From positions 1 to 24,758 of IMG/VR virus record IMGVR_UViG_3300007609_000086: a DNA stretch of 24,758 nt; one strand, written 5' to 3'. Source of the stretch: a virus. Made by a program: the position numbers and the translations under genes. The notes beneath the pieces are model-generated. The model had not been told where the DNA came from, did no database searches, and saw only the letters and a list, made by a program, of their open reading frames with translations. Within the stretch, counting starts at the first letter, position 1. Every line of letters starts with the position of its first letter. This document shows, piece by piece, positions 2,863-24,090 of this stretch.

Positions 2863-3194
2863 TGAAAGAGACAATTAAAGAACTTATTACCATACCAGAG
2901 TTATCTGAAATGTTTGGTTTAAAAAAGAGTTACATATATAAAATGTTGCATGAAAAAAGCTTGCCACATTATAAACCTTTTGGCAAAAAAGTATTTTTTA
3001 AATTAAATGAGATTAATGAAATATTAGAAGTTTCTAAGGTAAAAAGTAATAAATATGAAACAGATAAACTAGACAAACAACGTGAACTTTTAATTGACTT
3101 TATGGATAAAACACAATCTAATTTAGGCTGGGGATGGGATTTGTGGCAATCAGAAAAGTTAGCGGATGAATATTTAAAAGTAAATTTACAATAA
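2862..3194 (+). CDS. Excisionase-like helix-turn-helix protein
   Basis: 110 aa. Residues 8-60 (ITIPELSEMFGLKKSYIYKM, then LPHYKPFGKKVFFKLNEI) form an HTH_17/MerR-excisionase-type DNA-binding domain. The C-terminal 50 residues are charged and unassigned, with a Trp-rich segment (LGWGWDLW). It is coupled to both neighbours by one-base overlap (TAATG), so it is translated with the annealing protein and the exonuclease. A DNA-binding regulator or architectural role is the simplest reading; no integrase is nearby to make it a true excisionase. Confidence 0.75.
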   Translation: MKETIKELITIPELSEMFGLKKSYIYKMLHEKSLPHYKPFGKKVFFKLNEINEILEVSKVKSNKYETDKLDKQRELLIDFMDKTQSNLGWGWDLWQSEKLADEYLKVNLQ

Positions 3195-3865
3195 TGAACA
3201 TTACACAAAGAAAGTCAAGGATAGGACATTACACCAGCAGCCAGATATACAGGCTAATGGGTACTAAAAGAGTAAGAGAAACCTATCAAGAAGAAATAGA
3301 GCTAGAGAAACGTTTAAAGACGGCAATTAAAGAAGATGGAGGTTCAAGGGCATCTAACTGGGGTACTATAATGGAATTTTACGTTAACGAGAACTACCTA
3401 CCTATTGGATGGAATGCTTGGATAGAAGGCACAATAGAAAACGAAGAGTTAAATAATTGGAGTGGAACGCCAGATATTTACAGCGAAGAAGGCATAGGAG
3501 ATATTAAATGCTATGGCAGAAAGAAGTTTGCTAAAATGGCATCAATAATTGAGCAAAATGATTTAGAGCTATTTAAAAAGGAGTTTCCAGATACTTACTG
3601 GCAGTTGACATCAAATGCAGCTTTAGCAGATAAAAGTAAGTGCATGTTATTAATCTACCTACCTTATGAAAAAGAATTAAACGACATAGCTAACTGGGTG
3701 TCTAATTACGAGATAGACCAGCCTTGGAAGTATAGGTTTATTTCAGAGAGTGAAAGCTGGGAGCTGCCATGTCAAAGCAATGAAAGCGACTTTGATAATG
3801 TAATTAGTTTTGAATGGGAGTTAGTAAAAGAAGATGTAGAAGCACTTAAACAGGAATTGGAGTAA
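3194..3865 (+). CDS. PD-(D/E)XK exonuclease (YqaJ/lambda-exo-like)
   Basis: 223 aa. Motifs in order: a basic start with YTSSQIYRLMG, then SNWGTIMEFYV with a conserved acidic residue, then WSGTPDIYSEEGIGDIKCY, which supplies the PD...(D/E)xK catalytic core (Asp of GTPD, Asp-x-Lys of GDIK). Next is YWQLTSNAALADKSKCMLLIYLPY, as in YqaJ-type viral recombinases. It would resect dsDNA ends and feed ssDNA to the SAK3-like protein upstream. Its stop codon TAA runs directly into the first module junction of the downstream array (TAACG at 3863-3867). Confidence 0.85.
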   Translation: MNITQRKSRIGHYTSSQIYRLMGTKRVRETYQEEIELEKRLKTAIKEDGGSRASNWGTIMEFYVNENYLPIGWNAWIEGTIENEELNNWSGTPDIYSEEGIGDIKCYGRKKFAKMASIIEQNDLELFKKEFPDTYWQLTSNAALADKSKCMLLIYLPYEKELNDIANWVSNYEIDQPWKYRFISESESWELPCQSNESDFDNVISFEWELVKEDVEALKQELE

Positions 3866-3872
3866 CGTAGGA

Positions 3873-4159
3873 GTATAAAAACAGTAAAAAGCGGATTATG
3901 AGCAGACAACATCATTATTTAAAAACAGAAACAGAATACTACCAAGCGGTAGAGCGTGGGGAAAAGAAGTTTGAACTACGAAAAAATGACAGAGACTTCA
4001 AAAAGTACGATATGATATACCTTGAAGAAGTTGTAAAAGGTGTAAAAACTGGGCGAATTTTACCACAAATGGAAATACAATATGTGCTAAAAGGTGGTAA
4101 GTACGGATTGAGCGAGGGCTTTTGTATAATTAACTGGTAGCTTTTTATTGGTTTTATAC
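3873..4159. repeat. Module 0: inverted-repeat bracket around the DUF3850 gene
   Basis: Left arm 3873-3892 is GTATAAAAACAGTAAAAAGC and right arm 4140-4159 is GCTTTTTATTGGTTTTATAC; 18 of 20 positions are complementary. The left arm ends 5 bases before the start codon and the right arm begins on the last base of the stop codon, so the bracket fits the gene exactly. AACG precedes it (3864-3867) and ATTGTT follows it, the junction pattern shared along the chain. Confidence 0.75.
3898..4140 (+). CDS. DUF3850 (ASCH/PUA-like) protein
   Basis: 80 aa. HHYLKTETEYYQAVERGEKK, FELRKNDRDFKKYDMIYLEE and the C-terminal YVLKGGKYGLSEGFCIINW match DUF3850, a small ASCH-superfamily domain common in phages. ASCH/PUA folds bind RNA or modified nucleotides, but the role of DUF3850 in phages is not established. 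The gene sits alone inside a 20-bp inverted-repeat bracket, first in the accessory module chain. Confidence 0.88.
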   Translation: MSRQHHYLKTETEYYQAVERGEKKFELRKNDRDFKKYDMIYLEEVVKGVKTGRILPQMEIQYVLKGGKYGLSEGFCIINW

Positions 4160-4162
4160 ATT

Positions 4163-4192
4163 GTTGGCATCATCGTTTTAATGTGTGCCAAC
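4163..4192. repeat. Module 1: gene-less hairpin with CGTTTTAATG loop
   Basis: Arms GTTGGCA (4163-4169) and TGCCAAC (4186-4192) pair perfectly; CAT and ATG just inside can extend the stem. The loop holds CGTTTTAATG (4174-4183), repeated in three other hairpins of this region. It lies between the brackets of the DUF3850 gene and the 81-aa gene. Confidence 0.75.
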
Positions 4193-4198
4193 GGACTT

Positions 4199-4492
4199 GT
4201 ATAAACTCTAGTAATTAAAACCATAACAGAAATGACATATAGAAACTACATAATTGAATACACCGCAAAAGCCAAAAATGGAGCGGTGTTAAAAAGCGGA
4301 AAAATAAGAGCTAAAAACCGAATGAGTGAATTTGAAGCTCAAGTAAAGTTTGAAGAATGGTTAAAGAAAAAACACCCTGAATTTGGACAGTTGATAGTGC
4401 ATAAGTGCTATGTTGACAACCCACTTAGCGGAATTTTTGGCGACATATTAGGCAAGGACAACCCTTTCGGGTTTTAATTATTGAGTTTATAC
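4199..4492. repeat. Module 2: inverted-repeat bracket around the 81-aa gene
   Basis: The left arm 4199-4222 begins GTATAAACTC and ends TAATTAAAACC. The right arm 4470-4492 is its reverse complement apart from two versus three bases in the middle, so 21 pairs are matched. The right arm covers the stop codon (TAA at 4475-4477), and the left arm ends 10 bases before the start. Its arm sequence differs from those of the neighbouring modules. Confidence 0.78.
4232..4477 (+). CDS. Hypothetical phage protein, 81 aa
   Basis: Starts MTYRNYIIEYTAKAKNG and ends DNPLSGIFGDILGKDNPFGF. The first half looks beta-rich, followed by an amphipathic helix (FEAQVKFEEWLKKKHPEF). I recall similar short proteins from Bacteroidota phages but no function. 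The last codons and the stop form part of the right arm of its inverted-repeat bracket, so the C-terminus may be constrained by DNA or RNA structure. Confidence 0.75.
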   Translation: MTYRNYIIEYTAKAKNGAVLKSGKIRAKNRMSEFEAQVKFEEWLKKKHPEFGQLIVHKCYVDNPLSGIFGDILGKDNPFGF

Positions 4493-4495
4493 TGT

Positions 4496-4538
4496 GTTGT
4501 ATGGGCTTTACGCCCTTGCCGTTTTAATGGCATACAAC
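4496..4538. repeat. Module 3: gene-less hairpin with nested stems
   Basis: Outer arms GTTGTATG (4496-4503) and CATACAAC (4531-4538) pair perfectly. Inside lie GGGC tttac GCCC (4503-4515) and GCC gttttaat GGC (4518-4531). CGTTTTAATG is at 4520-4529. It differs from the other hairpins in carrying an extra GC-rich sub-hairpin. Confidence 0.75.
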
Positions 4539-4543
4539 GGACA

Positions 4544-5307
4544 GGCATAAGAATAGTAAAAACACGACTTATGAGTATTAAAAATAAATACAAGGTACAA
4601 AGCATAAATGTAAGCACAGTTAAAGAGTGGTTTCTTAAAAAGCACTACGCTAAAAGAATGCCTAATGTTACTTATTGTTTTGCCCTTTTAGATGAAAATA
4701 ACTTGACTGTTGGTGTTTGTACTTTTGGGTTTCCAATGGCTTCACAATTACAGGCTGCTGTTAATGGAAAGTTTAAAGTTATGGAACTAAATAGGCTTGT
4801 TACAAATGATGATTTGCCAAAAAATTCAACTTCTTATTTTGTTGCAGAGTGTTTAAATAAAATACCTGCACCCATGACCTTTGTTAGTTACGCAGATAGT
4901 GAGCAAGGGCATCATGGTTATATTTATCAAGCTACTAATTGGATTTATACTGGAATGGGTGCTGGTGGTTGGGGTTGGGCTGTAAAAGGGCTTGAACATA
5001 TGCACCACACAAGCATAGAGGATAGTGTTGGTAGGTATGAAAACAGAAATACAGACAAAAGCCTTGAAGAATTATTAAAAGAAAAATATGGTGACAAACT
5101 TTACAAGAAGAAAGAAAGCCCCAAACACAGGTATTTTATGTTTAAAGGAAATAAAGTTGAAAAGAAGATTTTTTGGCAAAATTTTAAGTACAAACAGCAG
5201 CCATACCCTAAAGGGCAAAACAATAGATATGATGCTGGATATAAACCTGCCATACAAACCACTCTTTTTTAAATGCAGAAACTAAGTGTTTTTATTATTT
5301 ATATACC
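4544..5307. repeat. Module 4: inverted-repeat bracket around mom
   Basis: The left arm 4544-4565 (GGCATAAGAATAG...AAAAACAC) and right arm 5286-5307 (GTGTTTTTATTATTTATATA then CC) are complementary at 18 of 22 positions, and one mismatch would be a G-T pair. The left arm ends 5 bases before the start codon at 4571; the right arm begins 13 bases after the stop. Confidence 0.7.
4571..5272 (+). CDS. mom: Mom-family DNA modification protein
   Basis: 233 aa from ATG 4571; an upstream in-frame TTG at 4481 lies inside a bracket arm and was not used. Segments VKEWFLKKHYAKRMP, KVMELNRLVTNDDLPKNSTS, FVSYADSEQGHHGYIYQATN and WIYTGMG match the GNAT-like Mom family. Phage Mu Mom converts adenine to a carbamoylmethyl-type derivative that blocks many restriction enzymes, so an anti-restriction role is likely; the exact modification cannot be read from sequence. 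The C-terminus is AIQTTLF, resembling the QxxLF sliding-clamp-binding peptide and shared with the methyltransferase downstream. It is a single-gene module in the inverted-repeat chain. Confidence 0.88.
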   Translation: MSIKNKYKVQSINVSTVKEWFLKKHYAKRMPNVTYCFALLDENNLTVGVCTFGFPMASQLQAAVNGKFKVMELNRLVTNDDLPKNSTSYFVAECLNKIPAPMTFVSYADSEQGHHGYIYQATNWIYTGMGAGGWGWAVKGLEHMHHTSIEDSVGRYENRNTDKSLEELLKEKYGDKLYKKKESPKHRYFMFKGNKVEKKIFWQNFKYKQQPYPKGQNNRYDAGYKPAIQTTLF

Positions 5308-5309
5308 AT

Positions 5310-5338
5310 GTTGTGCAATCGTTTTAATGTTGCACAAC
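5310..5338. repeat. Module 5: gene-less hairpin with CGTTTTAATG loop
   Basis: Perfect 9-bp arms GTTGTGCAA (5310-5318) and TTGCACAAC (5330-5338) enclose an 11-base loop, T plus CGTTTTAATG (5320-5329). Two bases separate it from the mom bracket and five from the next module. Confidence 0.8.
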
Positions 5339-5343
5339 GTTTA

Positions 5344-5455
5344 ATGTATGAGTAGTGTGGCAAAACTTGTTGGTATGATACTTACAGAGAACCACCCATC
5401 TGGACGCAGTAATCACTGGAATAAAAAAAGGCTGTAAGCCACATTACTTATACAT
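5344..5455. repeat. Module 6: inverted-repeat bracket around a 29-codon ORF
   Basis: Left arm ATGTATGAGTAGTGTGGC (5344-5361) and right arm GCCACATTACTTATACAT (5438-5455) are complementary at 16 of 18 positions; one or both mismatches could be G-T pairs. The left arm contains the start codon of the short ORF, and the right arm begins one base after its stop. Only three bases separate it from module 7, with no hairpin between. Confidence 0.75.
5348..5437 (+). CDS. Possible 29-aa cassette protein
   Basis: Begins MSSVAKLVGMILTENHPSGR and ends in a basic segment (NHWNKKRL). No family recognised. The ORF starts inside the left arm and stops one base before the right arm of module 6, filling the module as the longer genes fill theirs. 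That fit is the main support. It could also be a non-coding spacer. Confidence 0.4.
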   Translation: MSSVAKLVGMILTENHPSGRSNHWNKKRL

Positions 5456-5516
5456 AATGTTATATGCTTTTATTTTTTAGCGTTGGAAAATATTTTTAAA
5501 ATTTCTTTGCATATCT

Positions 5517-5547
5517 ATTGTATATATAAATAATATATATATATTTG
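5517..5547 (+). promoter_or_regulatory. Bacteroidota-type promoter inside module 7
   Basis: TTG (5518-5520), a 19-base spacer and TATATTTG (5540-5547) followed by TAG closely match the Bacteroidota promoter form. The next gene starts at 5572, about 25 bases downstream, so this module carries its own promoter. Confidence 0.7.
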
Positions 5548-5571
5548 TAGAGAACATTAAAACAAAGAGGT

Positions 5572-5820
5572 ATGAAAAAAATTAAAAGATTTTGCAAAGA
5601 GTATAAAATGAAGTTTGAAAAACAAACTTATTTTGGTTTTATAGCATCTATTTTAGTTGATGTAAAAGCAGGTATGGAGCGTGATTTACACACTGGAAAA
5701 CTAATAAGTACTCCTATAAAAAAGATAGGCACAAGAAGAGTTTATTTTGATATGCATACTTATAGTGATGGAGATATATCTTTTGGTAAACAATATAAAA
5801 ACTCACACCCTGCGTTGTAG
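5572..5820 (+). CDS. Hypothetical protein, 82 aa
   Basis: Lysine-rich start (MKKIKRFCKEYKMKFEKQ), an apolar segment (YFGFIASILVDV) and a beta-looking end (RRVYFDMHTYSDGDISFG). No known domain. It is the first gene behind the promoter in module 7. A terminator-like hairpin overlaps its last codons, so it may be expressed more strongly than the two genes after it. Confidence 0.65.
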   Translation: MKKIKRFCKEYKMKFEKQTYFGFIASILVDVKAGMERDLHTGKLISTPIKKIGTRRVYFDMHTYSDGDISFGKQYKNSHPAL

Positions 5821-5828
5821 GGTGTTTT
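5805..5828 (+). terminator. Terminator-like hairpin at the end of the 82-aa gene
   Basis: ACACCCT (5805-5811), a 7-base loop and AGGGTGT (5819-5825) continue into a TTTT run. The stem overlaps the last codons and the stop. The T run is short, so partial termination or 3'-end protection is as likely as full termination. Confidence 0.5.
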
Positions 5829-5840
5829 AGATATACAGAT

Positions 5841-6044
5841 ATGACTGCAAAAGAAAAAGCTAAAGAGTTAATAGAAAAGTATGATAAAAAAATAAACTCA
5901 ATAGCCATTAAGCCCATAAAAGAAGCATCATTAATATTAGTTAATGAAGTACTTGAAAGTTTTATGATAAATATTCCTAAACATCAAATGGATTTTTGGG
6001 AAGAAGTTAAAAAAGAAATAAAAGAATATAAAGGGAGATATTAA
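5841..6044 (+). CDS. Small hypothetical phage protein, 67 aa
   Basis: Begins MTAKEKAKELIEKYDKKINS and ends with HQMDFWEEVKKEIKEYKG. Helical, charged proteins with this opening (MTAKEKAKEL) and a W-x-E-V-K-x-E-I ending recur in flavobacterial phages; the function is unknown to me. Second gene of module 7, 20 bases after the first. Confidence 0.7.
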   Translation: MTAKEKAKELIEKYDKKINSIAIKPIKEASLILVNEVLESFMINIPKHQMDFWEEVKKEIKEYKGRY

Positions 6045-6092
6045 ACTCAAAAACGCCATTAATGAACGGTTACTGGCAAAACTAAGTGAACT

Positions 6093-6221
6093 ATGAAAAA
6101 GAAACTAATAGAGATACCCGAAGAACTATTTAAGAAAATAGAGGAATCTGCTAAAAATAACGTAAGAAGTGTAAATAAAGAGATACAGTTTCTTCTTACG
6201 AGTGCGGTGGGTAAAAAATAA
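6093..6221 (+). CDS. Mini Arc-like ribbon-helix-helix protein, 42 aa
   Basis: The sequence KKLIEIPEELFKKIEESAKN, then RSVNKEIQFLL, fits the beta-strand/helix/helix pattern of Arc/MetJ ribbon-helix-helix DNA-binding proteins, with the typical R-S-x-N-x-E-I of the second helix. At 42 residues it is close to the minimum for the fold, which works as a dimer. It probably represses nearby genes. No toxin partner is evident, so an antitoxin role is speculative. Its stop codon is part of the right arm of module 7. Confidence 0.7.
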   Translation: MKKKLIEIPEELFKKIEESAKNNVRSVNKEIQFLLTSAVGKK

Positions 6222-6235
6222 TTGCATATAACGGT

Positions 6236-6349
6236 AAAGTATATGATTTCGGTGGCGATTGATTGCAGAACTTTTCGCATACCGACTAATTAACAAGACT
6301 GCACAGTGGCTAAAATTAAGCACTATAACGCCACTGAATTATATACATT
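6236..6349. repeat. Module 8: long imperfect stem without a gene
   Basis: The left arm 6236-6257 (AAAGTATATGATTTCGGTGGCG without the middle quoted further) and right arm 6329-6349 pair at 18 of 21 positions with one bulged base. The 71 bases between hold no ORF of note. A competing hairpin CAGTGGC (6304-6310)/GCCACTG (6330-6336) uses the same right arm, so two folds are possible. Flanking TATAAC (6227-6232) and GTTATA (6350-6355) also pair, giving the overall layout of a long integron attC. Confidence 0.6.
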
Positions 6350-6656
6350 GTTATAGGGCGGTTTTATTATGCACAAAGTACAATTAGTTTTTATTGAATT
6401 ACCATTTGCGCCATATTATGAGTACGATGAAAAATTAATATTAAACATTAAAGAAAAAGTAAACAACAAAGAAATAGAATTACCTATTATACCGACAAAA
6501 GAAATGAAATTAGACCTTTCAACGTTTAATAGTGATTTTGAATTTACCGAAAAAGAGATAGAAGCAATTGATGACTGCAACCAATTGTACGACATAGATA
6601 CTATTGTAGTTACTTCGTCAAATGTTGAGATATGGCTAACTTAAATGCCCTATAAC
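6350..6656. repeat. Module 9: inverted-repeat bracket around the 91-aa gene
   Basis: GTTATAGGGC (6350-6359) and GCCCTATAAC (6647-6656) are perfect 10-bp inverted repeats at the edges of a single-gene module. Pairing beyond these ten bases is weak, so the bracket is shorter than in the other modules. Confidence 0.7.
6369..6644 (+). CDS. Hypothetical acidic protein, 91 aa
   Basis: Starts MHKVQLVFIELPFAPYYEYD and is rich in Glu/Asp, especially in the second half (FEFTEKEIEAIDDCNQLYDID). No domain recognised; the size and acidity recall phage anti-host proteins, but that is only a comparison. ATG lies 9 bases after the left module arm and the stop lies 2 bases before the right arm. Confidence 0.65.
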   Translation: MHKVQLVFIELPFAPYYEYDEKLILNIKEKVNNKEIELPIIPTKEMKLDLSTFNSDFEFTEKEIEAIDDCNQLYDIDTIVVTSSNVEIWLT

Positions 6657-6661
6657 GTGCC

Positions 6662-6696
6662 TTGTGTATGTTGTCGTTTTAATGCAACATACACAA
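6662..6696. repeat. Module 10: 12-bp hairpin, best attC-like site
   Basis: TTGTGTATGTTG (6662-6673) and CAACATACACAA (6685-6696) form a perfect 12-bp stem around the 11-base loop T plus CGTTTTAATG. Just outside lie TATAAC (6651-6656) with a 5-base spacer and GTTAGCA (6698-6704) with a 1-base spacer. The whole 6650-6704 unit resembles a short integron attC: inverse core, stem, asymmetric spacers, core. Confidence 0.78.
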
Positions 6697-6753
6697 TGTT
6701 AGCAGTATGTATTTTTAATTTTTTTTTAGCGTGGGATTTTTAAAACTTTAATA

Positions 6754-7473
6754 ATGGAAATAAACAGAATATACAACGAGCCGAATAATGAAACAATGGC
6801 AAAAATGCCAGATTGTTTTGTAGATTTAATTGTAACTTCTCCTCCCTACAATTTGGGTAACTCAAAAAAAGGAAGTTTTTACGGTGGGAAAAGTAAAGGG
6901 GAAAATATTGAATACATAGACCACGATGACGATATGCCAACACAAGAATATATTGATTGGCAACACTTATTATTTAAAGAATGGATGAGAATATTAAAAC
7001 CAACAGGAGCAATATTTTACAACCATAAACCAAGAATTTTAAATGGTGTTTATGATGACCGCAAAAACTTAATACCATTTCCAATAAGGCAGGAAATTAT
7101 TTGGGATAGGTGTGGAATGGTTAATTTTTCAGGTAGTTTTTTTGCACCAAATACCGAAAGGATATACATAATTGCAAAGCCTGAATGGAAGCCTAATAAA
7201 GAATGTTTAGGTTTTGGAGAAGTTTGGAAAATTACACCCGATACAGGAATAAACCACCCTGCTCCATTTCCATTGAAACTTGCAAAGAAAATAATTGTAT
7301 CATCAACAAATGAAGGTGCAATAGTTTACGACCCTTTTATGGGAAGTGGAACAACGGCTATTGCCTGTTTACAGCATAAAAGAAATTATATTGGTAGTGA
7401 ATTATCAAATGAGTATGTTGAACTTTCAAAACAAAGACTGAAACCTTATGAAATGCAGACTACTCTTTTCTAA
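6754..7473 (+). CDS. Beta-class DNA methyltransferase (N4-C or N6-A)
   Basis: 239 aa. Motif IV DLIVTSPPYN (SPPY at residues 29-32) precedes the SAM-binding motif I YDPFMGSGTTAIA (D193-P-F-M-G-S-G-T), the order of beta-class amino-methyltransferases. TSPPY is shared by N4-cytosine and some N6-adenine enzymes, so the base is undecided. No restriction enzyme is adjacent, so it is an orphan phage enzyme likely to protect phage DNA. It ends in EMQTTLF, the same clamp-like tail as Mom. A perfect hairpin follows the stop. Confidence 0.93.
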   Translation: MEINRIYNEPNNETMAKMPDCFVDLIVTSPPYNLGNSKKGSFYGGKSKGENIEYIDHDDDMPTQEYIDWQHLLFKEWMRILKPTGAIFYNHKPRILNGVYDDRKNLIPFPIRQEIIWDRCGMVNFSGSFFAPNTERIYIIAKPEWKPNKECLGFGEVWKITPDTGINHPAPFPLKLAKKIIVSSTNEGAIVYDPFMGSGTTAIACLQHKRNYIGSELSNEYVELSKQRLKPYEMQTTLF

Positions 7474-7490
7474 TCGGTTTGAAAAACCGA
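7474..7490 (+). terminator. Hairpin directly after the methyltransferase stop
   Basis: TCGGTTT, a 3-base loop gaa and AAACCGA form a perfect 7-bp hairpin right behind the stop codon. There is no T run, so it may stabilise the mRNA end rather than terminate transcription. Confidence 0.4.
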
Positions 7491-7533
7491 AAGTGCGTTG
7501 GCAAAAAATTAAAAATATTACTGCTAACACAAA

Positions 7534-7561
7534 AATAAGTTGATTTTTAATTCAATTTATT
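7534..7561. repeat. Module 12: hairpin at the right end of the chain
   Basis: AATAAGTTGA (7534-7543) and TCAATTTATT (7552-7561) pair over 10 positions with one G-T pair, loop TTTTTAAT. It is flanked by CTAAC (7524-7528) and GTTAA (7566-7570), as in module 10, but the loop is not CGTTTTAATG. No partner for the following GTTAAAAGC was found, so the chain appears to end here. Confidence 0.6.
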
Positions 7562-7610
7562 GACTGTTAAAAGCAGTTCAGCTCTGCTGTATTGCGTATT
7601 AAAACTGAAA

Positions 7611-8300
7611 ATGAAAAAGAAATGCAAAGGAAAAGGACTTGCAAAAGGTAATGGATGCAATAAGCTTGAATTTATTAATCCAATGTGTAAAGGTCTTTGC
7701 TCTTCTTGCTGGAAGTCATGGCTGCTAAATTCTAATGAAGGTAAACAATACCTTTCTAAAGTAGGTTTAAAAGCTAAGAAGAAAGTAAAGCACAAAAAGC
7801 AACAAGCCAAAACAAAAGGACTTAGACAACTAATGAGCGTAGATGCTTATAGAGCTAAAGTTTTGCAGCCAGTAATAAATGAGATAGCAAGGTTAATAGA
7901 CTACGGACAGCCTTGCATAGCATCAGGAAGAACAACTGGTAAGATGGCTGGAGGTCATAGAAAGTCAGTAGGCACTAATAGAGGTATTGCACTTAATCTT
8001 CACAACATACATATTCAGTCCTTTGAAAGTAATAGTTTTAGGGGTGGAGATGAGCGAGCCTATGATGCTGGAATAGTTCGAGAATATGGGGATACTTATT
8101 TAGATTACCTTATCTCCTTAGAAAATTATACGGCTAAATTTAGCAAGGCAGAATTAGAAGAAGCCTATCCAAGAGCTTGCAAGTTTAGGAATGAATTAAA
8201 AAAAGATAAAAAAGTTTTAAGTTCTAAAGAGCGCATAAAGAAAAGGAATAAAGCAAATGATTTTATAAAATTGTACGATTTAAAAGGTTTTATTTGGTAA
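7611..8300 (+). CDS. ninG: NinG/Rap-like recombination nuclease
   Basis: 229 aa from ATG 7611; the in-frame TTG at 7560 lies in the last module hairpin. An N-terminal Cys cluster (MCKGLCSSCW) and long lysine-rich linker lead to the NinG core: KVLQPVINEIARLIDYGQPC, GGHRKSVGTNRGIALNLHNI and DERAYDAGIVREYGDTYLDY. Lambda NinG (Rap) is a DNA-junction endonuclease that cuts branched recombination intermediates, which fits the annealing protein and exonuclease upstream. C-terminus is lysine-rich. Confidence 0.88.
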   Translation: MKKKCKGKGLAKGNGCNKLEFINPMCKGLCSSCWKSWLLNSNEGKQYLSKVGLKAKKKVKHKKQQAKTKGLRQLMSVDAYRAKVLQPVINEIARLIDYGQPCIASGRTTGKMAGGHRKSVGTNRGIALNLHNIHIQSFESNSFRGGDERAYDAGIVREYGDTYLDYLISLENYTAKFSKAELEEAYPRACKFRNELKKDKKVLSSKERIKKRNKANDFIKLYDLKGFIW

Positions 8301-11223: not shown

Positions 11224-11883
11224 ATGGAAATAATACAGAAATTTACAACCTTTAAAAATGAAATAGACCACTTATTTAATCTAATTGAAAAAAAACGAGA
11301 GGAGAGAGAAACGTGGAGCAATGAAAATAGAAAACAAATAAAGGCTTTGTACCCAGCAAAAAACAAAATTTATAAAGTAAAGGATATTTATAAAATTGTT
11401 AATTCTTATGACCATGATAAAATTAACTCAGATGAAGATTACTATTTTAAGGTAACATTTACAAGGTTTGCGCCTAAAACAGATTTTAGATTTGATGACC
11501 CTTACCCAAGTGTTAAGGGAGTTGTGTTAGACTGCAACTTAAAAGAAACTGATTTGATAGGTTATTTTACTAGAGTTTCAATAACTGAATTAGAAAAGGT
11601 AGAAAAGAAAAATACTTCTCAATCCGAAAGGCTAACAAAGATTTATGTAATGATTGACAAAAATACTGGATACTATAAAATTGGACGTTCTAAAAATCCT
11701 TCAATAAGAGAAAGAACATTGCAATCAGAAAAGCCCACAATAGAAATGCTATTTAACTCTGATGCAAAGGTTAAAGATGAAAAGGTTTTACATGATAAGT
11801 TTTATGAAAAAAGAGTAAGGGGTGAATGGTTTGATTTAAACGGCTCTGATTTATGTACTATTAAACAATATCTGAATTGCTAA
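11224..11883 (+). CDS. GIY-YIG (Mug113/T5orf172-like) nuclease
   Basis: 219 aa. Residues 138-212 carry the compact GIY-YIG variant of the T5orf172/Mug113 group: KIYVMIDKNTGYYKIGRSKN, a conserved Arg (RERTLQSE), then Glu and His (DEKVLHDKFYEKR) and RGEWFDL at the end. The N-terminal 135 residues are unassigned and may bind DNA. Standing between terS and terL, where Bacteroidota phages usually have no gene, it looks like a freestanding homing-type nuclease insertion. Its last seven bases overlap the start of terL. Confidence 0.8.
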   Translation: MEIIQKFTTFKNEIDHLFNLIEKKREERETWSNENRKQIKALYPAKNKIYKVKDIYKIVNSYDHDKINSDEDYYFKVTFTRFAPKTDFRFDDPYPSVKGVVLDCNLKETDLIGYFTRVSITELEKVEKKNTSQSERLTKIYVMIDKNTGYYKIGRSKNPSIRERTLQSEKPTIEMLFNSDAKVKDEKVLHDKFYEKRVRGEWFDLNGSDLCTIKQYLNC

Positions 11884-13859
11884 TTAAAACCACCGCACAG
11901 GATAAAATAGCCAAACTAAGAAAACGTATTAGAGTGGTTTATGGTGGCACTTCTGCAAGTAAGACATTTAGTATTATACCTTTTTTAATTGAGTACGCTA
12001 TAAACAACGCAAACCAAGAGATAAGCATAGTATCTGAAAGCATACCTCACTTAAGACGTGGAGCAATGAGGGACTTTCTAAAGATAATGCAAGGGATTGG
12101 AATGTACCAAGATGCAAAGTTCAACAAGTCTTCACTTACTTACAAGTTTGGAAACAGGTCTTACATAGAGTTCTTTAGTGCAGACCAGCCAGATAAACTA
12201 AGAGGAGCAAGAAGGGACGTTCTATTTATAAATGAGTGCAATAATGTAACCTTTGAAGCATACCAGCAACTAGCAATAAGAACAAGAAAGTTTATTTATC
12301 TGGACTATAACCCTACTCATGAGTTTTGGGTGGATACAGAACTAAGCGAAGATAAAGACGTTTGCAAGGTAGTTTTAACATACAAAGATAACGAAGCCTT
12401 AGAGCCTGCAATAGTAAAAGAAATAGAGAAAGCAAGGGAACGAGCTAAAACATCCCACTACTGGCGCAATTGGTGGAACGTTTATGGATTAGGAAAACAG
12501 GGAAAGGTCGAAGGAGTAATTTACAAAGACTTCAAAATAATAGACCAGCTCCCAAAAGAATCGAGGCTACTATGCACAGGTCTGGACTTTGGGTTTACTA
12601 ATGACCCAACAGCAGCAGTTGACATCTACAAGCTAAATGAAGGCTATATCTTAAACGAAGTTCTTTATAGGAAAGGATTACACAACAATGAAATATACAC
12701 CCTCTTAAAAGACAAGAGATTAGTTTATGCAGATAGTGCAGAGCCTAAGTCAATTAGTGAAATGCAAAGATATGGATTGCAGATTTTACCAGCTACAAAG
12801 GGGCAAGGCTCTGTTATGTTTGGTATACAGTTATTACAATCTCATAAAATTTTTGTAACTTCGCAAAGTGTTAACCTAATAAAAGAAATGAGGAATTATA
12901 GCTTTGACAAGGACAAACAAGGAAACACACTAAACAAGCCAATAGATGCTTTTAATCATTGTTTTGTAGGTAGTACACCAGTAAGTACAATTGATGGTGT
13001 TAAAATGATTAAGGATATTGAAGAAGGTGACTTAGTTTTAACTTCAAAAGGACATCACAAAGTATTGAAAAAATTTGATAATGGTATCAAAAAAGTATAT
13101 ACATTTTCTTTGAATTTTCATGCTTTTGTAGTATATTTAACTTGTACACCAGACCATAAAATAAATACAACAAAAGGATGGAAGCCAATACAAAAACTAA
13201 GCAGCAAAGATGTATTATACTTGAAGAAAAGTTTAATGGGAAAACATATAAGCTGCACAACGGAGAAAGATATTTTAGCAGAGGAACAAAAAGGCTGCAT
13301 AGAGTTGTTTGGGAGTTCCACAAAGGAGCAATACCAAAAGGATACCATATCCATCACGTCAATGGCAACACTTTGGATAACAGAATTGAAAACCTTAATA
13401 TTGTACATGAAAAACTACATCTTAGGTTTGAGGCTAAAAAGCGTTTTAAAAACAACCCTAAATTTGCTAAAGAGTTTCAATCTAAAGGCATTGAAAAAGC
13501 TAAGGAGTGGCATAAGTCAACAGGTGGCAAAGCATGGCATATTGAGCATGGTAAGAAAACATGGATTAACAGAAAGTATAGAACCCTTGAATGTAATGAG
13601 TGCGGCAAAGAGTACAAAACAAGACATTCAGGAGTTTCAAAATACTGCCATAACAACTGCAAGGCTAAAGCGAATAGACGTGAAAGAAAGCAAAGAAGAG
13701 AGGGTATATGATTTAATGATTGAAACAAACCACGAGTATTTTGCAAATGGTGTTTTAGTTCATAATTGCTTAGATGCTGCAAGGTATGGAGCAATGGAAG
13801 TAATGGCTGGAAACGAAAAAGGCAGTTACAGAGTAAGAAGAGTAAATTATAAGAAATAA
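11877..13859 (+). CDS. terL: Terminase large subunit interrupted by an intein
   Basis: 660 aa precursor; 391 aa after removing the intein (residues 362-630). ATPase: Walker A-like YGGTSASKT (22-30) and Walker B DVLFINE (114-120). RNase H-like nuclease: D237 in TGLDFGFTNDPTA, D286 in LVYADSAEP, and motif III DAFNH (357-361) joined after splicing to CLDAARYG (from 631). It cuts concatemeric DNA and drives it into the head. The start is TTG 11877: an in-frame stop lies at 11862-11864 and the first in-frame ATG falls after Walker A. The start lies inside the end of the nuclease gene upstream, perhaps because insertion of that gene cost terL its own ATG. Confidence 0.95.
   Translation: MLIKTTAQDKIAKLRKRIRVVYGGTSASKTFSIIPFLIEYAINNANQEISIVSESIPHLRRGAMRDFLKIMQGIGMYQDAKFNKSSLTYKFGNRSYIEFFSADQPDKLRGARRDVLFINECNNVTFEAYQQLAIRTRKFIYLDYNPTHEFWVDTELSEDKDVCKVVLTYKDNEALEPAIVKEIEKARERAKTSHYWRNWWNVYGLGKQGKVEGVIYKDFKIIDQLPKESRLLCTGLDFGFTNDPTAAVDIYKLNEGYILNEVLYRKGLHNNEIYTLLKDKRLVYADSAEPKSISEMQRYGLQILPATKGQGSVMFGIQLLQSHKIFVTSQSVNLIKEMRNYSFDKDKQGNTLNKPIDAFNHCFVGSTPVSTIDGVKMIKDIEEGDLVLTSKGHHKVLKKFDNGIKKVYTFSLNFHAFVVYLTCTPDHKINTTKGWKPIQKLSSKDVLYLKKSLMGKHISCTTEKDILAEEQKGCIELFGSSTKEQYQKDTISITSMATLWITELKTLILYMKNYILGLRLKSVLKTTLNLLKSFNLKALKKLRSGISQQVAKHGILSMVRKHGLTESIEPLNVMSAAKSTKQDIQEFQNTAITTARLKRIDVKESKEERVYDLMIETNHEYFANGVLVHNCLDAARYGAMEVMAGNEKGSYRVRRVNYKK
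12960..13766 (+). other. Class 1 intein (269 aa) within TerL
   Basis: Block A begins with Cys362 (CFVGSTPVSTIDGVKMIKDI). Block B has TPDH (T424-H427) and GWKPIQKLSSKD. Block F is EERVYDLMIE. Block G is NGVLVHN ending in His629-Asn630, with Cys631 as the first residue of the C-extein. All residues for standard class 1 splicing are present. The site lies inside the catalytic nuclease motif DAFNH/CLDAARY, so the unspliced protein should not cut DNA. The middle, about residues 452-597, matches no splicing block and is the out-of-frame reading of a nested HNH gene. Confidence 0.93.
13178..13711 (+). CDS. HNH homing endonuclease nested in the intein, other frame
   Basis: 177 aa in another frame of the same strand, wholly inside the intein. 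Residues 17-75 (FNGKTYKLHNGERYF, RLHRVVWEFHKGAIPKGYHI, HHVNGNTLDNRIENL) give the HNH fold with the HH and N of the active site. A basic helical linker and a zinc-finger-like C139-x2-C142 ... C157-x3-C161 follow, as in phage HNH homing enzymes. The frame has a stop at 13157-13159, so ATG 13178 (preceded by AAAAGG) is the natural start. It would cut intein-free terL alleles and so spread the intein. Confidence 0.85.
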   Translation: MEANTKTKQQRCIILEEKFNGKTYKLHNGERYFSRGTKRLHRVVWEFHKGAIPKGYHIHHVNGNTLDNRIENLNIVHEKLHLRFEAKKRFKNNPKFAKEFQSKGIEKAKEWHKSTGGKAWHIEHGKKTWINRKYRTLECNECGKEYKTRHSGVSKYCHNNCKAKANRRERKQRREGI

Positions 13860-21753: not shown

Positions 21754-21985
21754 TACTTGTTACACCTTTGTAACGTTATGGGGTGGAGTAGCTCCTTATA
21801 CGTTGAAAATGGTTAGCAATTTAGATAGAGATGTAACACAAAACTTTATCTTAACTCTGGACAACTATGGAGATAGGAAAAGATATGTAATAACACCAAC
21901 AGTAATGCTAGGAACTTATGACTACACCATAGAGGATGACTTAGGCAATACATACGAGATAGGATTAGCAGAAATAACGGAATGA
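21725..21985 (+). CDS. Small phage protein before portal, 86 aa
   Basis: Beta-rich (TCYTFVTLWGGVAPYTLKMV, DNYGDRKRYVITPTVMLGTY, ending EDDLGNTYEIGLAEITE). It looks like a small immunoglobulin-like or single-barrel structural protein; no family is certain. It overlaps the 54-aa gene and shares ATGA with the portal gene. Confidence 0.65.
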   Translation: MLNLVQNQSNTCYTFVTLWGGVAPYTLKMVSNLDRDVTQNFILTLDNYGDRKRYVITPTVMLGTYDYTIEDDLGNTYEIGLAEITE

Positions 21986-24090
21986 AAATAGAATTTATAA
22001 ACACGAATAAAAAGGACGTTAAATACTTTTTGTCAAGGTCGCAAGATGATAACAAATGGCTAGGCTATAATGAAGATGGCAAGCAAGGCGTTTCAAGGGT
22101 TAATCAATTAGCCTATGACCTTATAGAGCTGTACAATCAAAGTTCTAAACATAACGCTATAATTACTTCAAAAGTAAATTACATTACAGGAGAAGGCTTA
22201 AAAGCGGAAAATCCAGACCAGAAAACAAGAGAGTTTTTATTTAGCGTAAACAGAAATGAAACGGCAAATGAATTATTTGAAAAGATTTGCTTAGACTATG
22301 AATTACAAGGCGGTTTTTTTGTTCAATTAGTTTTTTCTAAACTTGGTGGTGTTTTAGTTAATTCATATCATATGCCTTTCCAGAAGATGCAACCTAGCGA
22401 AGACGGCAAAAAATTTAAATATACACCAGACCCAAAGAAACCTAGAGAATTTGAAGTATTTGATGCCTATGTAGATGGAGAAAATACAGGAACTAAAGTA
22501 TTATTTATTTCTAAGTATCGTGCTGGTTCAGATGTATTGCCTTTGCCTGATTACTTTGCAAGTTTAAAGTATATTCAGATAGATGCAGAAATAGCCAACT
22601 TTAACTTATCTAATATTAGAAGTGGTTTTAGTGCTGGAACTATGATAGTCTTTGCAGATGGAGAGCCAGACCCAGAAGAAGAAGACGCAATAGTAGAACA
22701 ATTAAAGCACAGCACAAGCGGAACAGATGCGGCTGGCGGTGTGTTTGTTTACTTTAAAAAGTTAGGTAGTGAACGACCCGAAGTAATACCTTTAAATGGT
22801 AATGACTTAGTAGAACGCTTTGCTAACTTAAACGAGCAATGCAAGGATGAAATAATGATAGGTCATAAAGTAGTTAGTCCTATGTTGTTTGGAGTTAGGA
22901 CAGAAGGGCAATTAGGAGGACGTAATGAAATAATAGAGTCCTTTGAATTGTTTAATAACAGCTACATAAAACCAGCGCAAAAGATATTCACATCTACTTT
23001 TAATTTCCTAAACAGATTAAGCGGAGGACAAAGCACAATTTCAGTAAAAACACCTTTACCAATAGGCTTGGATTTAATACAATTATTTCAAGAGGGTATT
23101 GTTACAGATTTACCTTATATTCAAAAGGAATTAGGATTGCCAGTTAAAAAGGTAGAAACTCAATTAAGAGAATATGACGGCAAATTTAGGGATACCGACT
23201 GGCACGAGTTTGTAAACTTTGGAGAAGCAGCAGAAGGGTTTGAAATACTAAAAGAAATGGACGTATTTTTCAACTCACAGGATATGCCAGTTAGTTTTGA
23301 TAGTGTAGATGACGAAATATTAAAGGCTATTGCAACTAATCCAGCTATTGATGTAGCAAGTTTGATAAATGCTTTAGATTTAGATGCTAAGGATGCAAGC
23401 GAAAGGATAGGCAGATTGATTGAAGACAAGTTAATAAACCCAGACAAGGGGCTGCAAATTACTCCAGAGGGTGAATTAACAATAGACAAAGCACCCAAGA
23501 GCCAGTTTTTCGTTAAATATCAGTACTCTGGTCCTCAAGATAAAAGAAATAGAGCTTTTTGTGCTAAACTAATGGAACTAAACAGGGTGTATACAAGAGA
23601 AGAAATAAACCAGCTTAGTGGAATACTAGGTTATAATGTTTGGATGCGTAGAGGGGGCTGGTATCATAATACTGAATTGGATGTGAATACTCCCTATTGT
23701 AGACATACATGGAAGCAAATAATCGTTAAAAGAAGGGTAAACAATGTATCAAAAACTAATAACATAGAAAAACAACTTGAAAGCGAATTTCCAAAATTAA
23801 CAATAGATGTTTATCAAAATGATAAAAATAGAGTGCTAACATTATCTCGTATAATTATTCCCGATAATTTAAGAGGTGAAGGTATTGGAACTGATTTTAT
23901 GGAAAGCCTTATAGACAAAGCAGACAAATTAGATTATAAAATTATATTGACTCCATCAGAAGATTTCGGGGGTGATAAAAATAGGCTTATAGATTTCTAT
24001 AAAAGATTTGGCTTTGTTTTAAATAAAGGCGAAAATAGGGATTTTTCACACAGGGAGGATATGTATCGATTACCAAAAACTAAAAACTAA
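21982..24090 (+). CDS. Portal protein fused to a GNAT acetyltransferase-like domain
   Basis: 702 aa. Residues 1-360 are a portal core (VNQLAYDLIELYNQSSKHNA, NYITGEGL, ELQGGFFVQLVF, GHKVVSPMLFGVRTEGQLGG). Around 440-505 a winged-helix-like segment (DDEILKAIATNPAIDVASLI) precedes a Cys/His module seen in Bacteroidota portals (RAFCAKLMELNRVYTREEIN, RRGGWYH, PYCRHTWKQIIVKR; to about 583). From about 588 to the end is a GNAT-like domain: LTLSRIIIPDNLRGEGIGTD with acetyl-CoA loop R631-G-E-G-I-G-T637, then LTPSEDFGG and LIDFYKRFGFVLNKG. The portal is the DNA gate of the head; the GNAT part is an unusual addition. Confidence 0.9.
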   Translation: MKIEFINTNKKDVKYFLSRSQDDNKWLGYNEDGKQGVSRVNQLAYDLIELYNQSSKHNAIITSKVNYITGEGLKAENPDQKTREFLFSVNRNETANELFEKICLDYELQGGFFVQLVFSKLGGVLVNSYHMPFQKMQPSEDGKKFKYTPDPKKPREFEVFDAYVDGENTGTKVLFISKYRAGSDVLPLPDYFASLKYIQIDAEIANFNLSNIRSGFSAGTMIVFADGEPDPEEEDAIVEQLKHSTSGTDAAGGVFVYFKKLGSERPEVIPLNGNDLVERFANLNEQCKDEIMIGHKVVSPMLFGVRTEGQLGGRNEIIESFELFNNSYIKPAQKIFTSTFNFLNRLSGGQSTISVKTPLPIGLDLIQLFQEGIVTDLPYIQKELGLPVKKVETQLREYDGKFRDTDWHEFVNFGEAAEGFEILKEMDVFFNSQDMPVSFDSVDDEILKAIATNPAIDVASLINALDLDAKDASERIGRLIEDKLINPDKGLQITPEGELTIDKAPKSQFFVKYQYSGPQDKRNRAFCAKLMELNRVYTREEINQLSGILGYNVWMRRGGWYHNTELDVNTPYCRHTWKQIIVKRRVNNVSKTNNIEKQLESEFPKLTIDVYQNDKNRVLTLSRIIIPDNLRGEGIGTDFMESLIDKADKLDYKIILTPSEDFGGDKNRLIDFYKRFGFVLNKGENRDFSHREDMYRLPKTKN

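Follow-up and report, generated by a model that had tools for sequence, protein, structure and literature searches.

The virus record IMGVR_UViG_3300007609_000086 of IMG/VR, analyzed here over 24,758 nucleotides (nt) of phage DNA (the window), contains between positions 3864 and 7568 a chain of adjoining segments, each beginning and ending with mutually complementary arms, and raises the question of what kind of element encloses gene after gene in paired sequence. The original prediction, made from the letters alone, had proposed a cassette-type capture system and had known of no description matching it. Its first part proved right, as the chain is built in the manner of integron gene cassettes with their attC sites: this stretch is, we hold with high confidence, an integron-type array of six cassettes in a Bacteroidota phage, present without integrase, i.e., a cluster of attC sites lacking an integrase (CALIN), with mobile units reaching from AAC to AAC. 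The second part was too strong, since phage clusters have been reported, including a very similar array in Polaribacter phage P12002L (Qi et al., 2023; PMC9892861). Integrons and attC recombination are established, and so is the presence of CALINs in phages.

In an integron, the 5' end of a cassette pairs with its own R'' box, and attC pairs L'' with L' inside the pair R''/R'. Under this scheme an array shows alternating brackets in which pairing is kept and sequence is free. Segments of the form GTT...AAC are here termed R and those of the form AAC...GTT are termed L. From 3864 to 7568, R and L brackets alternate strictly and without a break, each closed by complementary arms; the first L'' arm starts at 3873, and the arms of the brackets that were drawn are in register base by base. 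The 13 brackets originally listed were thereby confirmed, with coordinates right within a few bases. The gaps of zero to six bases seen between them do exist, but they represent the conserved AAC together with unequal spacers, 5-6 nt after AAC and 1-3 nt before GTT. An independent inverted-repeat finder, as had been suggested, returned the three longest arm pairs (6697/7529, 5459/6232 and 4199/4492), and the longest brackets reach about 830 nt with a gene inside.

A chain finder provided only with GTT, AAC, arm pairing and small spacers detected 11 consecutive brackets (4193-7565) with a score of 82.5, which the first L segment (3867-4162) and the R hairpin behind it (4163-4192) lengthen to 13 segments. 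Dinucleotide shuffles of the array region (n = 120) did not reproduce the chain, with a mean score of 9.1 and a maximum of 17.5; scores in five further stretches of the window were 5.5-9. By a stricter count, a chain of eight in the window stood against six at most in 300 shuffles, six being reached by one shuffle. In relatives, 80 compact hairpins of the form GTTGT-N4-TCGTTTTAATG-N4-ACAAC were collected from distinct contexts; they possess 16 different 5' arms, and 72 are fully paired (G.T counted) around the invariant loop CGTTTTAATG. The claim that pairing and not sequence is kept hence stands, and in related phages the arms are conserved as pairs, an outcome on which the original prediction depended.

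Chain searches covered both strands, reverse arrays included. Which part of such a chain moves was studied in 58 array loci. Homology between different arrays started at AAC in 31 of 100 cases and ended there in 33 of 100, where random placement would give about 4.8 and 4.4; the corresponding values for GTT were 5 and 14 of 100, with about 4.3 and 5.5 at random. The limits of homology were most frequent at positions -4/-3 and 0/+1 relative to the AAC end. A locus from a metagenome-assembled genome (L288) harbors an exactly duplicated unit, 100% identical from AAC to AAC, and the L segment 6233-6349 of the window (117 nt) recurs in five phage contigs, the sequence upstream of AAC being wholly different every time. 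Open reading frames (ORFs) of at least 50 aa cross GTT at 109 of 337 junctions and AAC at 15 of 356; the genes lie within R (140), within L (92) or span from L into R (92). Judged from these sequence comparisons, the mobile unit is a pair of adjoining brackets, AAC-L''..L'-GTT..R..AAC or [L][R], and not the single bracket originally taken as a module, because shared stretches and natural deletions are both bounded at AAC.

Such natural deletions are found in the Freya phages, ten isolates from one Polaribacter host that vary in length before a gene annotated 'integrase'. With Freya_10 as reference and differences taken from the deposited genomes, Freya_1, 2, 5, 8 and 9 (5/5) were reproduced with zero mismatches by removal of whole AAC-to-AAC stretches from Freya_10, the AAC ends used being 419, 1261, 2163, 5054 and 5361 in coordinates of the extracted stretch. 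As the junctions have only AAC, or CAAC in one case, in common, homologous recombination is unlikely; within the extracted stretch AAC accounts for 2.8% of positions. Losses always comprise [L][R] pairs, and Freya_6 possesses a 472-nt [L][R] unit, missing from Freya_10, between an AAC and the attI-like site described below. Gain or loss of modules at AAC/GTT junctions, as had been anticipated, was therefore seen at AAC, although not at every AAC/GTT junction. The paper on the Freya phages took the integrase as a hint of temperate potential, and its text contains neither 'integron' nor 'cassette' (PMC8776804).

Beside four arrays of relatives a recombinase gene starts 42-52 nt past the last AAC, and one contig (L123) displays the order array, recombinase, ninG, matching the locus of the array in the window. 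An alignment search of viral contigs for this recombinase yielded 80 loci; among the 45 non-redundant ones with at least 1.5 kb of upstream sequence the array is upstream of the recombinase in 44 and downstream in one, the 44 array ends falling 32-58 nt before the start codon. The last AAC is followed by the conserved, attI-like sequence TATTATATATAA, whereas the sequence before it is variable beyond TAAC. The phage recombinases comprise about 264 aa and are Xer-like (best model NF040815; also PDB 4a8e and 5hxy). In the tree, 25 of 26 are united in one clade (100/99) apart from chromosomal enzymes, the divergent L105 enzyme being placed outside on a long branch. Several of the ten genes tested from the neighborhood of recombinase loci are typical of phages (RNA ligase/tail fibre attachment, virion structural, UvsX/DnaB-like). 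The model TIGR02249, tried as an integron marker, matched everywhere via Xer proteins across 14 array-bearing genomes and was rejected as not diagnostic. Two further observations concern array ends. P12002L (L312) contains two separate arrays, near record positions 37260 and 29240, in both of which the last AAC is followed by one and the same sequence of about 68 nt (AACGGATAAAACAAGTTTTACCAAAC...); it may be a common anchor or an attI-like element without integrase. In Cellulophaga phage Ingeline_1 (L508, around 6593-6703) an R bracket ends 46 nt before the annotated integrase, and the sequence after AAC is Freya-like (ACCCACATAAC).

A related, larger recombinase was present in 55 of 119 genomes of the sampled class. 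Of 40 chromosomal loci, 20 offered sufficient sequence; about a dozen of these had an array downstream of the recombinase, and essentially none had one upstream. Of the 40 genes, 20 have a contig end within 1.5 kb in the 3' direction and not one in the 5' direction, the bias that assemblies broken by repeats would show. The two kinds of array are mirror images in their wobble pairs: on the sense strand, phage-type arrays show 538 G.T/T.G against 22 A.C/C.A, integrase-linked chromosomal arrays 82 A.C/C.A against nine G.T/T.G. Spacers are about 5-6 and 1-3 nt in the former, 1-3 and 5-6 nt in the latter, and ORFs run 333 sense to 20 antisense (of 353) and three sense to 44 antisense, respectively. 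By this sequence evidence, the genes of phage cassettes face the opposite way, with respect to attC polarity, from those in integrase-linked chromosomal arrays of Bacteroidota. The simplest reading is a single recombination polarity, with crossover at the R box by the longer spacer, and phage genes inserted in reverse. For integrons, the attC loop (variable terminal structure) was reported to have little effect on recombination or strand choice, and strand choice to fall to the spacers in sites without extrahelical bases, whose top strand recombines at R'' (Bouvier et al., 2009; PMC2727003). In these terms, the folded strand would be gene-sense in phages and antisense in chromosomal integrons; unlike the attC sites of that study, phage arrays apparently fold the gene-sense strand, marked by G.T wobbles with G on the 5' arm. 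Bacteroidota chromosomal loci (L314, L321, L357-L396) have arrays just past the 3' end of a recombinase that often bears an N-terminal extension of about 100 aa, and several of them show an attI-like GGGTATA-N6-GTTA after the stop codon; they are probably under-annotated chromosomal integrons. Within the Bacteroidetes, a complete integron was reported by IntegronFinder 2 for Salinibacter ruber M1 (PMC9024848).

From this a mechanism can be proposed. Each AAC-to-AAC unit carries one attC-like site formed by two nested pairings, L''/L' and R'/R''. The gene sits inside L, inside R or runs via L'/R' from L into R, and genes may have their start within attC. In the course of phage replication or entry the gene-sense strand would become single-stranded; the two pairings would then fold into one stem recognised by its shape, and a tyrosine recombinase would cut the R box beside the longer spacer, i.e., at AAC; whole [L][R] units would in this way be excised, inserted or swapped. 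Integrase and attI would have their place directly downstream of the last AAC, the position of the recombinase gene in many relatives. As neither is found at that place in the window, a recombinase would act in trans, supplied by host, prophage or co-infecting phage, or the array would be a relict or immobile. It is likely, moreover, that Bacteroidota phages carry an integron lineage of their own, with a small Xer-like integrase, attI, inverted cassettes and genes possibly starting inside attC, which sheds and exchanges DNA-modification and other genes of no assigned function as single units within phage species, and of which the window holds an integrase-less member.

Several points weigh against this interpretation. 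The recombinases gave no tblastn match in the window, and the sequence past its last AAC no attI match; mobility is seen, by genome comparison, in relatives and not in the phage of the window, and a residual doubt for the Freya isolates is mis-assembly, although their junctions have only 3-4 nt in common. The six R' boxes of the window (GTTGGCA, GTTGTAT, GTTGTGC, GTTATAT, GTTATAG, GTTAGCA) keep the GTT core, but none fits the 7-mer GTTRRRY/RYYYAAC. The linked recombinases of relatives reach about 92-225 bits against TIGR02249, below its cut-off of 265, and leave model positions of about 180-240, the insert of IntI, unmatched. Since the strict GTTRRRY core, the IntI insert and the classical gene orientation (away from attI, with attC at the 3' side) are all absent, the system is better called integron-like in its working than a plain member of the classical family, and the pair of integrase and attI that defines a complete integron lies beside arrays of relatives, not beside that of the window. 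Several traits that characterize a CALIN are nevertheless present: tandem gene cassettes separated by at least two attC-like sites that pair as R''-L''...L'-R', a site structure conserved over sequence and with strand asymmetry, and whole cassettes lost, gained or swapped at the core site, documented in relatives by Freya and the homology ends and in the window by the shared L segment.

It could be argued that the array is an ordinary CALIN of bacterial, classical cassettes, moved by classical IntI as canonical [R gene][attC] units that are cut between G and TT. The box architecture is the same, and the published passages on phage CALINs include some phage attC sites that recombine with IntI1 (PMC9892861). 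This is nonetheless improbable, as in gene orientation the units, the Freya losses included, end at AAC and not at GTT, ORFs run through GTT, gene polarity against attC is reversed with respect to chromosomal arrays, the linked phage recombinases are not classical IntI, and no R' box of the window has the GTTRRRY core. Even less credence is given to the view that the brackets are RNA structures or terminator hairpins at the borders of genes, maintained for the folding of transcripts and not for recombination. Arms do lie by start and stop codons, and sense-strand G.T pairs would be G-U pairs in mRNA; a function at the RNA level is rejected because the G.T bias switches strand with attC polarity, wobbles being on the antisense strand in integrase-linked chromosomal arrays. 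Brackets of up to about 830 nt around a gene and the loss of whole units at AAC in sister phages also argue against it, and an Rfam search of the window returned no family, only one sub-threshold Histone3 match. Transposon-like elements with hairpin ends (IS200/IS605 or repetitive extragenic palindrome type), each bracket being mobile alone as first suggested, would explain the recurrence of conserved-loop hairpins in many contexts, yet are hardly plausible, as each bracket has arms of its own, a transposase gene was not recognised next to the array of the window, Freya lost only [L][R] pairs and the enzyme linked to array ends is a tyrosine recombinase.

Among known systems, the phage CALINs of PMC9892861 resemble the integron-type array of the window in their paired R''/L''/L'/R' boxes, GTT/AAC cores, tandem cassettes and DNA methyltransferase cargo. 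The array differs from them in its AAC-bounded unit in gene orientation, the inversion of genes against attC, genes inside attC, the conserved CGTTTTAATG loop and the lack of a strict GTTRRRY. For P12002L, the passages concerned (Qi et al., 2023) report a CALIN with two methyltransferases and, in E. coli, recombination of one of its attC sites (attC2) with IntI1; they do not describe AAC bounding, inversion, genes inside attC or the loop. In our analysis this phage showed the same architecture as the window, with Mom and methyltransferase cassettes, ninG as a neighbor and two CGTTTTAATG-loop sites. Chromosomal integrons of the sedentary Vibrio type, which have IntI, share the layout of integrase, attI and array, and an attC kept by structure; the phage-lineage recombinase differs in being Xer/XerA-like without the IntI insert and in adjoining that array end to which the cassette genes point. 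XerA, XerC and XerD are the best matches of the linked recombinases, which differ from them by cassette arrays, an attI-like motif and a phage clade of their own. The open-licence literature searched on integrons of Bacteroidota and phages gave no account of a phage integrase clade with attI, of inverted polarity or of genes inside attC, and a literature search on the loop sequence yielded unrelated papers only.

Hairpins of this kind recur in viral contigs and in Bacteroidota genomes. At least 119 stretches in IMG/VR contigs fit a loose hairpin pattern, about half to two thirds of those read being true hairpins. The CGTTTTAATG pattern was detected in 15 stretches among roughly 85,000 bacterial and archaeal species genomes scanned and, in a draw of 395 Bacteroidota genomes, in the reference genome itself only; being so scarce in genomes, it marks mainly phages and prophages. 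Where the bacterial hairpins examined had informative neighbors, these were phage genes, encoding terminase, portal and head proteins in Tenacibaculum soleae, a terminase and a head protease in a second case and a tail fibre in a third. A compact hairpin also occurs in a contig binned as Candidatus Lokiarchaeota (L291), probably a misbinned phage.

The six [L][R] units of the window (Table 1) carry, in order, DUF3850, a gene of unknown function, Mom, three small genes, a second gene of unknown function and an N4/N6 methyltransferase.

Table 1: Cassettes of the array in the window and the genes flanking it.
Feature	Position	Strand	Basis
Upstream phage gene, weak YqaJ exonuclease match, phrog_4763	3194..3865	+	profile match
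AAC, left boundary of the array; overlaps stop codon of gene 3194-3865	3864..3866	+	sequence
Cassette 1: L 3867-4162 with DUF3850 gene (3898-4140); compact R hairpin 4163-4192 (GTTGGCATCATCGTTTTAATGTGTGCCAAC)	3867..4192	+	arms; Pfam DUF3850 E=1.7e-20
Cassette 2: L 4193-4495 with 81-aa ORF (4232-4477); R hairpin 4496-4538, CGTTTTAATG loop	4193..4538	+	chain
Cassette 3: L 4539-5309 with Mom-like DNA modification gene (4571-5272); R hairpin 5310-5338 (GTTGTGCAATCGTTTTAATGTTGCACAAC)	4539..5338	+	Pfam Mom E=1.2e-34; chain
Cassette 4: L 5339-5458 (120 nt); R 5459-6232 with three small genes (5572-5820, 5841-6044, 6093-6221)	5339..6232	+	chain
Cassette 5: gene-less L 6233-6349 (117 nt); R 6350-6656 with 91-aa ORF (6369-6644)	6233..6656	+	chain
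Cassette 6: L hairpin 6657-6697, CGTTTTAATG loop; R 6698-7528 with N4/N6 DNA methyltransferase (6754-7473)	6657..7528	+	Pfam N6_N4_Mtase E=2.5e-42; chain
Right end of the array: last AAC 7526-7528, then short hairpin 7534-7561 and GTT 7566-7568	7529..7568	+	arms
NinG-like gene directly after the array	7611..8300	+	Pfam NinG E=6.9e-17

The ORF of cassette 2 had no family match, the L segment of cassette 4 contains no ORF of at least 40 aa, and the third gene of cassette 4 is Arc-like (Pfam Arc). Compared with cultured phages, DNA similarity over the whole array is limited to short matches, mostly in methyltransferase genes. A homologue of the upstream gene also precedes the array in P12002L, and a related phage (L246, 542-6287) has a homologue of this gene, followed in the same order by a DUF3850 gene and ninG, with no recognisable array. 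Near-identical L arms (GTATATGAATAGTAAAAACAC ... GTGTTTTTATTATTTATATACC) were noticed in L290 (3364-4190), L287 (1640-1950) and cassette 3, enclosing Mom in two of the loci and an unrelated gene in the third, so that cargo inside L may also be swapped. Elsewhere in the window, the ORF of the large terminase subunit (660 aa, 11877-13859) seems to hold an intein (CFVGSTPVSTIDG... ...EYFANGVLVHNC) and is overlapped by an HNH endonuclease-like ORF (13178-13711), and the C-terminal end of a portal-like protein (702 aa, 21982-24090) resembles a GNAT acetyltransferase domain (RGEGIGTDFMESL...); such a fusion, if real, would be unusual.

Predicted functions among the cargo are those of two DNA-modifying enzymes, a DUF3850 protein that is RNA-binding-like and an Arc-like regulator; this composition suggests a shuffling of anti-restriction functions, with which the predominance of DNA modification (Mom, methyltransferase) is consistent. 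Integrons have been seen as bacterial devices that phages occasionally acquire, and the phages considered here seem to run a version of their own. With an own integrase clade, attI, a cassette polarity and whole-cassette differences in cultured isolates, cassette shuffling in phages becomes testable at the bench, and 'integrase' genes once taken as signs of temperate life receive a new reading. Accessory anti-restriction genes would be explained as exchangeable parts, and the phage arrays, should they fold as proposed, would be a natural exception to the rule that integrons fold the bottom strand.

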